A stretch of 39,669 nucleotides of DNA, from positions 71,752-111,420 of the forward strand of contig JAAZYP010000001.1 in NCBI GenBank assembly GCA_014239585.1, read 5' to 3'. Below are positions 19,868 to 23,507 of the stretch, in pieces; position 1 is the stretch's first letter, and each line of letters starts with the position of its first letter. This DNA comes from Nanobdellota archaeon (lineage in GTDB: Archaea; Nanobdellota; Nanobdellia; UBA10117; ARS21). Below the pieces are notes generated by a model, which was not told where the DNA came from, searched no databases, and saw only the letters and a program-made list of their open reading frames with translations. Position numbers and translations under genes: made by a program.

Positions 19868-20071
19868 TTATTTCTTTGCTCCGCCAAGTCGAACCTTTTT
19901 TTGCTTGTTATATGAGTTAGTCCACTTAGTTTGAAGGGGTTTTCGTCCTAATTTTAAAAAGTTCTTCATTGCTTTACCATTTAAAAAATATAATACTCGG
20001 CCGCTGTTTCGAACTAACATTCGTCCCTTCCCTTTCGGAAGAGTTTTTCCACTAAATGAACATTCAACCAT
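19868..20071 (-). CDS. rpl24e: Ribosomal protein L24e
   Basis: VECSFSGKTLPKGKGRMLVRNSGRVLYFLNGKAMKNFLKLGRKPLQTKWT. Confidence 0.92.
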   Translation of the reverse strand: MVECSFSGKTLPKGKGRMLVRNSGRVLYFLNGKAMKNFLKLGRKPLQTKWTNSYNKQKKVRLGGAKK

Positions 20072-20337
20072 TATTTTCGACCCCTCTTTCCTGAACTTGC
20101 TTCAATTTCAGTTTGAGTTAACATTATAATATCTCCAACGCGAGTCGGACCATAAACATTTCGTCGCATAATCTTTCCGGCATCTTTTCCATCAAGAACT
20201 TTACATCGAACCAAAGTAACAACTTGTTTTGTACCTTCTCTACCGCTTAATTCTACAATTTCAGCAGGATATGCTTTGAGAAGCTTACCACTAAGATCAG
20301 TGTTTGATGATTGTTTCTTTGTTTCCTTTTCAGCCAT
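20071..20337 (-). CDS. rps28e: Ribosomal protein S28e
   Basis: YPAEIVELSGREGTKQVVTLVRCKVLDGKDAGKIMRRNVYGPTRVGDIIMLTQTEIEA. Confidence 0.94.
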   Translation of the reverse strand: MAEKETKKQSSNTDLSGKLLKAYPAEIVELSGREGTKQVVTLVRCKVLDGKDAGKIMRRNVYGPTRVGDIIMLTQTEIEASSGKRGRK

Positions 20338-20873
20338 TATTTCGATTTTTTATCTTCTTTCGGTTTTTCAACCTTTTCTGCAGGCTTTTCTTCTTTCGGT
20401 TTTTCAACCTTTTCTGCAGGCTTTTCTTCAGATTTTGATTCTTCTTTAACTTCTTTCTTTGGCGCTTCAGCTTTCGGTTTTTCTTCTTTAACTTCAGCTT
20501 TCTTTTCAACCTTTTTTACAGGTTTTGCTTCACCGTCTAAAAGAATTTTAATATCTTTCAAAAGTGTTTCCATCATTTTTTTATCTGCAGATACAATTGC
20601 TACAGCCGCTGTTGCGACAGGTAGACCTGCAGCTGCACCCAATTCTGATTTAGATGGTACATCCACATGCATGATGCTCTTTTCTTTTGCAATTAAAGGC
20701 AAGTGCATAATAATTTCAGCTGGAGAACTGTCAGCAGCAGAAATAGATAATTTCGCTTCTCCTCGTTCTAAGCTTTTAGTAACTTCATTTACGCCCTTTC
20801 GGATTTTACCTTCCGATCTGGCATTCTCAATTAGAGAATAAATTCTTTCCGTAATGTCTTTTGTTAGTTCCAT
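20337..20873 (-). CDS. rpl7ae: Ribosomal protein L7Ae with long Lys/Glu/Pro-rich C-terminal tail
   Basis: ARSEGKIRKGVNEVTKSLERGEAKLSISAADSSPAEIIMHLPLIAKEKSIMHVDVPSKSELGAAAGLPVATAAVAIV followed by about 60 aa of KVEKKAEVKEEKPKAE... Confidence 0.95.
   Translation of the reverse strand: MELTKDITERIYSLIENARSEGKIRKGVNEVTKSLERGEAKLSISAADSSPAEIIMHLPLIAKEKSIMHVDVPSKSELGAAAGLPVATAAVAIVSADKKMMETLLKDIKILLDGEAKPVKKVEKKAEVKEEKPKAEAPKKEVKEESKSEEKPAEKVEKPKEEKPAEKVEKPKEDKKSK
20354..20425. repeat. Perfect tandem 2 x 36 bp repeat inside the L7Ae tail
   Basis: cttctttcggtttttcaaccttttctgcaggctttt twice (20354-20389, 20390-20425), encoding EEKPAEKVEKPK-type repeats. Confidence 0.95.
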
Positions 20874-20962: not shown

Positions 20963-21280
20963 ATGGATAAATACACCAAACGAATTGACAGAAACATAGA
21001 AAAATTATCTGAAACTAGACAAATATTTCTGGAAAGTTTGATGAATAAATTAGAACATTCGTTAGATATAAAATCTGAATTAGAACCCGAATATAATTCA
21101 TTATCCAATACCGATAATGATTATCGAGAAATCTTAGATGTTTTGTCGGACGAAGTTATGAATGCCAATCGGATCAAAATGATGGATTATTTTGACAAAG
21201 CATCACCTTTCATTGCAATGGAATATTTTATGAGAAATATAAGTATCCAAGAAATGAAACTTAACGAATCTTCCGATTAA
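20963..21280 (+). CDS. Hypothetical protein (105 aa)
   Basis: ORF in gap, highly charged, no family recognised; 3' end overlaps the GluRS 3' end by 20 nt. Confidence 0.55.
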   Translation: MDKYTKRIDRNIEKLSETRQIFLESLMNKLEHSLDIKSELEPEYNSLSNTDNDYREILDVLSDEVMNANRIKMMDYFDKASPFIAMEYFMRNISIQEMKLNESSD

Positions 21281-22460
21281 GTGCGTTTAGTGTTTTGTAA
21301 ACTTCTTTCTTTTCAACAGTTTTGTCTCGTTTTGTCGGACCAATTTCATAAAAATATTTTATCAAAGTTTCAGGTTTAAATCCACGTTTTTTCAAAGAAG
21401 ATAGTGTTTCGATTTTTGAATCATCATATCCCGAGAATTTTCCCGATTCGACACCTTTTCGAATTTCAGACGCAGAAATATTCATACCTTTAAAATTAAT
21501 TCTTCCAAGATGAATATATTCAGGAATTTTCCAATTCATAAATTTGAAAATATTTTGTTGACGTCTAGTTTGATCTTCATGATCTTTTCCACGGATAACG
21601 TGTGTTAATTTTAAATCATGATCATCAATTGCTACTGAAAAATTCATCATTGGCCAAACTTTATATTTTTTACCAACACGAGGATGAGAGTTAGTATTTA
21701 TTCTAAATGCAATCCAATCGCGAAGTGCTGGATTTTTTAATCGAGAATCAGTTTTTACTCTAACAACCGCTTCACCCGATTTGTATTTACCCATAAGCAT
21801 CTTATTCCATTTTATCAAATTATCTTTAATTGAATTGTTAGTACCTAGCGGAGATTCACCATTTCTAATTTTTTTACGAATAAGTTCTGGATCTTCTTCA
21901 CAAACATACAAATGTCCAGATTTCAATAATTTTTCACCATATTTGTAATATGATTCAATTCGGTCAGATTGAATATATAATTCATCCGGTTTTCCAACTA
22001 ACCATTCAAAATCTCGCTCAATCATTTTGTAAAATTTTTTGAAATTTCCGTCAGGATTAGTATCTTCAATTCGAAGAATATGTTTTCCATTATATTTATC
22101 TCGATAAATTTTATTTATTGACAAGACTAAAGCGTGTCCGATGTGAAGCGGCCCCGAAGCAGATGGTGCAGAACGAACTCTAAATATTTTTTTAATATTT
22201 GGAAGATCAATTATTTCTTTCTTAATTATTTCTTTCGGATCAAAAAAGGAAGGATTTATTTTTTTCAATTTTTCAATTTGATCAGAAATCGATAATGCAT
22301 TGACTTCAGAAATTGTTTTTGCAACTGTTTTTGCAACAGTTGAAATTTTAGATTTATATTTAATAGTAGGTATGATTTTGTTAATTACTGCTTTTTGATT
22401 AGCCTTACCTTTAAATTCAACTGCATTTTCTAAAGACAGTTGAAGTATTTTCTTCCTCAT
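21261..22460 (-). CDS. gltX: Archaeal-type glutamyl-tRNA synthetase, catalytic part only (399 aa; lacks C-terminal anticodon-binding beta-barrel)
   Basis: VRSAPSASGPLHIGHALVLSINKIY...HILRIEDTNPDGNFKKFYKMIERDFEWL...HVIRGKDHEDQTRRQ...ISASEIRKGVESGKFSGYDDSKIETLSSLKKRGFKPETL...TLNALNRKIR-stop. Confidence 0.88.
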   Translation of the reverse strand: MRKKILQLSLENAVEFKGKANQKAVINKIIPTIKYKSKISTVAKTVAKTISEVNALSISDQIEKLKKINPSFFDPKEIIKKEIIDLPNIKKIFRVRSAPSASGPLHIGHALVLSINKIYRDKYNGKHILRIEDTNPDGNFKKFYKMIERDFEWLVGKPDELYIQSDRIESYYKYGEKLLKSGHLYVCEEDPELIRKKIRNGESPLGTNNSIKDNLIKWNKMLMGKYKSGEAVVRVKTDSRLKNPALRDWIAFRINTNSHPRVGKKYKVWPMMNFSVAIDDHDLKLTHVIRGKDHEDQTRRQQNIFKFMNWKIPEYIHLGRINFKGMNISASEIRKGVESGKFSGYDDSKIETLSSLKKRGFKPETLIKYFYEIGPTKRDKTVEKKEVYKTLNALNRKIR

Positions 22461-22496: not shown

Positions 22497-23507
22497 TTAT
22501 TTCGGATAAGCGGAATTAATTATTAATTGTTTATTTTTGAAATGTTTATGAACTGTTTTAAGATAACGATTAAATACTGTTGCCAAACTTGATTTTAAAT
22601 CCGCAGGATGTATTTTTTTGGATTTGTAATCTTTTTCTAATTCAAAAATGGTTGAATAAGCTTTATTTCCTCCAAATTTTTCAGGGCGAATTATATCAAA
22701 TTTTCCGTCAACAGGAAATACAACATTCCGAACCATATCTATAACTCCATTATTTTCAACAATTCCTTCAGGACAGTAAGCTTTACCTATTTTTTTAGTA
22801 ACTGATTTTGACGAATCATCAATATATATTGAAGAATTAGGATCAGAAGCAGACATTTTACCACCAGATTTACTTAACCCGATCAGCGGTGTAAATATAC
22901 AAATTGGCTTTTTATGACCTAGTTTCGGAACTTCTTCTCGCGCAAGCATGTAAATTTTCCTTTGATCGATTCCAGAATATGCAATATCAGCATTAAGATG
23001 ATGAACATCAATTGCTTGCATTAACGCATAATTCATTGAACCCAAATCAGGATTATCTACTTGCCTCACAACTTCAGAACTTGCACGCATAGCACGCTTT
23101 AATTTAACCAGCCCCATAATCTTGTATAAATCAAAAATATAGTCTTTCTTTTGTTGAAATGATGAACCTAATACAAATTTTACTCTTTTTGTATCTGCGC
23201 CAATAGATTTTAATATGGCAGTCATGGCCTCCTTGTAGTATTTTGATCGAGCAGTTGCTAATTTCCACGGAGATTTTCGATCATCCAGATAAGCATGAAT
23301 ATCTGCAAGAAGATATTTAACATCTAATCCTGCATCAATAAAATCTTTCAATTTCACTGCCTGAACATAATAACCGATATGAACTTTTCCAGTCGGAGCA
23401 GCACCAATATAGACTGAAGGTTTCTTACGAGAACGTAAAAGTTTTTCCAATTCTGGGCGAGTAATGGTTTCGATAGTATTTCTCAAAATTAAGTCGATTT
23501 TATTCAT
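22497..23507 (-). CDS. tyrS: Tyrosyl-tRNA synthetase
   Basis: KKPSVYIGAAPTGKVHIGYYVQAVKLKDFIDAGLDVKYLLADIHAYLDD...MQAIDVHHLNADIAYSGIDQRKIYMLARE...GGKMSASDPNSSIYIDD. Confidence 0.9.
   Translation of the reverse strand: MNKIDLILRNTIETITRPELEKLLRSRKKPSVYIGAAPTGKVHIGYYVQAVKLKDFIDAGLDVKYLLADIHAYLDDRKSPWKLATARSKYYKEAMTAILKSIGADTKRVKFVLGSSFQQKKDYIFDLYKIMGLVKLKRAMRASSEVVRQVDNPDLGSMNYALMQAIDVHHLNADIAYSGIDQRKIYMLAREEVPKLGHKKPICIFTPLIGLSKSGGKMSASDPNSSIYIDDSSKSVTKKIGKAYCPEGIVENNGVIDMVRNVVFPVDGKFDIIRPEKFGGNKAYSTIFELEKDYKSKKIHPADLKSSLATVFNRYLKTVHKHFKNKQLIINSAYPK

Follow-up and report, generated by a model that had tools for sequence, protein, structure and literature searches.

A glutamyl-tRNA synthetase that ends before its anticodon-binding domain in a tiny-genome archaeal family

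Closest described systems

In archaea that rely on GatDE and have no GlnRS, glutamyl-tRNA synthetase (GluRS) must charge both tRNA-Glu and tRNA-Gln. The non-discriminating GluRS of M. thermautotrophicus (3aii) shares with the enzyme described here its N-terminal helical region, catalytic domain, fold and order of motifs. Everything past approximately residue 391 of the 553 in 3aii, which is to say the whole anticodon-binding region, is absent from the short enzyme, as are the zinc-site cysteines kept by its archaeal relatives. GluQRS (YadB) likewise occurs naturally, resembles GluRS and has no anticodon-binding domain, but it is a ~300-aa paralogue found alongside a normal GluRS, and it glutamylates the anticodon of tRNA-Asp; the short GluRS fails the GluQRS models. 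To judge by the titles of two 2009 papers that PMC3927822 cites, the catalytic half of bacterial GluRS works without the anticodon-binding half: that of Dubois, cited in PMC4393105 too, reportedly concerns a C-truncated GluRS that is specific for tRNA-Glu and is stimulated by its free distal domain, and that of Dasgupta is said to deal with the catalytic domain of E. coli GluRS. Those truncated proteins are engineered, whereas the present enzyme occurs in nature, in archaea, with no second copy found.

The anticodon domain of bacterial GluRS is structurally very different from its archaeal counterpart, and the catalytic domain alone has been proposed as the primordial GluRS (PMC3927822). A natural sole GluRS lacking an anticodon reader, taken together with living one-barrel intermediates (see below), would make that proposal testable. 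The open-access literature (subscription papers lay outside the scope of the search) yielded no description of a naturally short archaeal GluRS, nor of the short GluRS of Pacearchaeota that is also considered below.

The gene stops at a domain boundary

The window, that is, the whole stretch of archaeal DNA that was analysed, spans 39,669 nucleotides; the features of the GluRS locus are collected in Table 1. Of the features of archaeal GluRS (gltX_arch / PRK04156), the protein has a class I E/Q catalytic domain with its HIGH motif and an N-terminal helical region, and it lacks the C-terminal two-barrel anticodon-binding domain: its terminal sequence is KKEVYKTLNALNRKIR, and alignments place the stop at the boundary between the catalytic and anticodon-binding domains. 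Matches to two curated archaeal GluRS models begin at profile position 3 and end at 404 of 567 and 396 of 560; the scores (441 bits against a cutoff of 516 for NF003169, 380 against 401.75 for gltX_arch) miss both whole-protein cutoffs, a shortfall that goes with the absence of the C-terminal part. Residues 7-389 align to residues 10-391 of the 3aii chain, on which the AlphaFold model (pLDDT 85) superposes with an rmsd of 1.6 over 316 columns. What is present is a whole GluRS except for the C-terminal anticodon-binding region (~155 aa). The first-pass annotation had described the reading frame, its strand and length, the archaeal N-terminal region, HIGH motif and catalytic domain, and an end before the anticodon-binding domain; the former are borne out by translation, PF00749 and the 3aii alignment, and the latter by alignments with full-length relatives and by the points at which the profile matches end.

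Table 1. Features at and around the short GluRS gene (window positions)
Feature	Position	Strand	Basis or remark
Short GluRS gene	21261..22460	(-)	399 aa + TAA stop
All-helical archaeal N-terminal region, residues 1-93	22182..22460	(-)	alignment with 3aii and archaeal GluRS models; helices 2-73 in AlphaFold model
Class I catalytic domain (PF00749), residues 94-384	21309..22181	(-)	216.7 bits vs cutoff 23.4
HIGH motif, residues 106-109 (context PLHIGH)	22134..22145	(-)	translation and alignment
CxC...CxC zinc-site region, residues 185-210	21831..21908	(-)	one Cys remains
KMSKS-equivalent loop ISASEIR, residues 328-334	21459..21479	(-)	column statistics
Last helix, residues 384-398	21264..21311	(-)	alignments and AlphaFold model; full-length relatives begin the proximal beta-barrel where this protein ends
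TyrRS, archaeal type, upstream of GluRS	22497..23507	(-)	PF00579; adjoins full-length GluRS in same-order relatives
L7Ae-type ribosomal protein (presumed), downstream	20337..20873	(-)	sequence recognition; synteny
S28e-type ribosomal protein (presumed)	20071..20337	(-)	sequence recognition; synteny
Convergent 105-aa ORF	20963..21280	(+)	overlaps last 20 bp of GluRS gene

The KMSKS-equivalent loop does read ISASEIR, as the first annotation had it, but its further proposal, that replacement of a catalytic-loop lysine by glutamate made this loop unusual, is rejected, since glutamate is frequent at the same column (that of E332) of full-length enzymes: it occupies the position in 13 of 54, the nearest full-length relative (G092, ISASETR) among them. 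At the column of A330, the usual place of the second KMSKS lysine, 23 of 54 full-length enzymes have lysine. The zinc site is another matter. In the alignment rows printed, which are part of the set, the CxC...CxC ligands of the acceptor-binding region are lost in all three sequences of the family to which this genome belongs (f1, defined below), and a four-Cys/His pattern is retained in the full-length, intermediate and other short enzymes, with G014 partially altered; as far as these rows go, loss of the zinc ligands is restricted to f1 among the groups compared.

A lineage-specific loss

Family f1 comprises four genomes (G000-G003, the own genome included) that are 78-91% complete, the own genome 86.7%. 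In the own genome, G001 (73% identity) and G002 (67% identity) GluRS ends at the same boundary, residue 398-400; the fourth gene, in G003, runs off the end of its contig. Same-order genomes outside f1 have full-length enzymes of ~550-563 aa (one start was not recovered). Thus the notion, entertained at the outset, that close relatives might universally encode the same length is correct within f1 and fails for the rest of the order, which makes this a lineage-specific loss. A C-terminal profile of 156 positions, made from the C-terminal domains of same-order relatives and searched at E<=10, has no match in any frame of the four f1 genomes; outside f1 it detects the domain in 13 of the order's 14 other genomes, the lone exception (G015) being 52% complete and devoid of any GluRS match whatsoever. 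PF03950 likewise has no match in the own genome, and neither a split gene nor a separate C-terminal domain was found with PF03950 (own genome) or with the profile (four f1 genomes). The earlier statement that no remnant of the domain lies downstream accordingly holds genome-wide as well, and the search that it called for, for a full-length gltX or a split C-terminal domain elsewhere in the genome, came up empty on both counts. The truncation is real and specific, and it is a lineage-specific loss in f1.

The gene has also been maintained: codon comparison gives dN of 0.22-0.28 against a (saturated) dS of >1.7, and the short GluRS of f1 is under purifying selection. Its surroundings are those of the order. 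The arrangement TyrRS-GluRS-L7Ae-S28e (the last two being names that we take from recognition of the sequences) is found, whole or in part, around the full-length GluRS of most same-order relatives, and is complete in G009; the convergent ORF has no homologue at two relatives' loci or in G002. Loss of anticodon-binding domains is not general in this genome: among the class I synthetases examined for which Pfam has a model, those for Ile, Leu, Val, Arg and Met retain a detectable anticodon-binding domain, as does, weakly, that for Cys, and a genome-wide loss is rejected on this ground.

The only detectable GluRS

The own genome has one PF00749 gene, and each f1 genome a single GluRS match. GlnRS was not found in the own genome (the short GluRS scores 173.4 bits against a glnS equivalog cutoff of 425.8), and neither was a second GatB/E-like gene. 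GatD and GatE are adjacent, and the tRNA complement includes tRNA-Glu with UUC and CUC anticodons and tRNA-Gln with UUG and CUG anticodons and an A1-U72 pair. With GatDE, tRNA-Glu and A1-U72 tRNA-Gln present and GlnRS absent, the enzyme should therefore be a non-discriminating GluRS. We consider it probable that the short protein is the organism's only detectable GluRS, that it is non-discriminating, and that the whole C-terminal domain was lost in the ancestor of f1; that it is catalytically active and charges both tRNAs, and which tRNA elements it uses, we infer.

Other accounts of a short gene must be weighed against this one. A frameshift in assembly or a pseudogene might be suspected, the source being a metagenome-assembled genome, and a read-level error had been raised as a possible cause. 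The identical end point in two further assemblies rules that cause out; the next gene in G002 starts ~70 bp past the end of GluRS, so that there is no room for the missing domain, which in any case is absent in every frame; and the retained locus together with purifying selection rules out both an artefact of assembly and a pseudogene, leaving this explanation a negligible probability. The protein might instead be a paralogue, of the GluQRS/YadB kind or another, that serves some other acceptor, the real GluRS lying in unassembled sequence; this is suggested by the similar lack of an anticodon domain in GluQRS and by the incompleteness of the genome. It is very improbable: the score against the GluQRS models is 83.1 bits for a cutoff of 256, as compared with the 380-441 bits given by the archaeal GluRS models, the archaeal N-terminal region is retained, the gene occupies the order's GluRS locus, and no second gene was found in any of the four f1 genomes. 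Of the two alternatives originally put forward, the YadB-like paralogue is thus abandoned, and the sole GluRS with relaxed or alternative recognition is the one that one gene per genome, no GlnRS, no separate domain and the presence of GatDE agree with. Anticodon binding might, finally, be supplied in trans, by a diverged barrel, by an Arc1p/Trbp-like tRNA binder, or through a complex with GatDE or TyrRS. The stimulation by a free distal domain in the title of Dubois would be a precedent of sorts. OB-fold tRNA-binding proteins of the Trbp/Arc1p type have been described (PMC11286949). Against this stand the lack of matches to the C-terminal profile or PF03950 in the f1 genomes searched and the lack, by a crude test, of a Trbp-like HPxAD motif in G000 and G002; assistance in trans is in our estimation unlikely, and a sole GluRS that has dispensed with its anticodon reader is the reading retained below.

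GatE of the own genome (L076:724-2148) is itself short, at 475 aa, and is missing an internal ~135 aa that correspond approximately to residues 260-393 of M. thermautotrophicus GatE (2d6f), probably the AspRS-like insertion domain. It was considered as a change coupled to that of GluRS and rejected, because comparably short GatE ORFs occur class-wide, with short or full-length GluRS.

Short and intermediate forms in the class

A survey of 378 genomes of the class found the catalytic part in 350 and a C-terminal profile match in 304; ~46 genomes have the former and not the latter (four of f1, ~41 of f11 and two others), a figure that comes from comparing two match lists and to which contig breaks may have contributed. 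Family f11 is the second large family and belongs to Pacearchaeota; the 20 f11 enzymes that were fetched are all 397-408 aa long. An example, L213 from KatS3mg001, has the same end point as the f1 enzyme (...LLKSFNK, then the stop) in a genome that likewise has no C-terminal domain. The f11 enzymes differ from those of f1 in forming a separate clade in the best tree, in lying at another locus, and in keeping the zinc site in the sequences printed. An intermediate class of 469-483 aa, found in several families (L215-L221, from G089, G291, G373, G204, G194, G196 and G216), lacks an internal stretch and keeps the last ~60 residues; from the GlnRS fold, we take these to be one-barrel forms that have lost the distal barrel. 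The AlphaFold model of a one-barrel form has an overall pLDDT of 64, with the last 60 residues forming a small beta-domain at ~77-89 in most blocks.

In a GluRS tree of 96 rows, built on the catalytic part only, the f11 short enzymes and most intermediates (with f48 and f57) form one clade (100/99), with the short form of G315 (L322) nested among intermediates and the intermediate of G204 placed elsewhere; f1 groups with full-length enzymes in another clade (100/99). Parsimony counts three losses of the distal part. A topology that unites every short and intermediate form in one clade is not rejected by an AU test (p 0.42), and this gives some room to a single origin, with the short gene acquired by f1 from the Pacearchaeota short clade; the enzyme would still be an anticodon-blind GluRS. 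Such a transfer is nevertheless improbable: the best tree, with its two supported clades, speaks against it, and so does the ancestral synteny of f1, none of whose TyrRS, L7Ae and S28e neighbours was found within the available flanking DNA at the eight Pacearchaeota short-GluRS loci checked. The retained ancestral locus speaks for a loss that happened in situ in f1, and independent loss in f1 and f11 is favoured by tree and synteny rather than proven. Within f11 the tree shows GluRS of differing types, full-length in other clades and short in the family's own clade, suggesting gene replacement by transfer.

Recognition of tRNA

A sole GluRS of this kind would recognise its tRNAs by the acceptor stem and D-arm instead of the anticodon, and GatDE would turn Glu-tRNA-Gln into Gln-tRNA-Gln, with the A1-U72 pair as its guide. 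The loss is plausibly tolerated because a non-discriminating enzyme must ignore position 36 anyway, which would make the anticodon domain less informative to it than to a discriminating one. The D-loop string GGYCAA, with NNAT after it, is confined to tRNA-Glu and tRNA-Gln in the two genomes compared, the own one and G002. Reading of the sequences by eye also finds U11-A24 present and residue 47 absent in the own genome's tRNA-Glu; both are among the identity elements of E. coli tRNA-Glu, of which, however, the anticodon is the strongest (PMC9976931), and this may count against efficient and accurate charging without an anticodon reader. Rejection of tRNA-Asp poses a similar difficulty for anticodon-free recognition: its D-loop is GGTCTA, but most of the D-arm is common to tRNA-Asp and tRNA-Glu in the same two genomes, and in the own genome tRNA-Asp has G73, as tRNA-Glu does.

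G73 is found in all f1 tRNA-Glu genes read, and A73 in the same-order genomes with full-length GluRS. In the tree set, a short enzyme is paired with G73 in 17 cases and with A73 in 6, any other enzyme with G73 in 2 and with A73 in 24, statistics that are confounded by lineage and reduce to 3 independent pairs. As a rule of short enzymes G73 is rejected, since it is shared by ~10 genomes with full-length enzymes in other parts of the class; class-wide, its link with short GluRS is an association, to be taken as a lead only. The more general proposition is that several DPANN lineages independently and stepwise (two barrels, one, none) gave up recognition of the Glu anticodon and that the identity of tRNA-Glu came to reside in the body of the molecule, with A73 changing to G73 as part of the shift. 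It is a possible but, on balance, somewhat doubtful reading; if true, reading of the code would bypass the anticodon at one of its central steps in dozens of species. In f1 itself, a tiny-genome archaeal family, the body of the tRNA may be what is read at the Glu step of the code; the GluRS of f1 would show the reach of such an identity shift and, being compact and presumably active on two tRNAs, offers a system for the study of indirect glutamine coding.

Two tRNA-Glu genes have unusual structures. That of G121 (L283), which ARAGORN calls as SeC, has what looks like an intron or some other insertion around the D-arm, and that of G129 (L295) has a long intron just 3' of the anticodon; truncated pattern matches suggest a similar tRNA-Glu intron in other f11 genomes.
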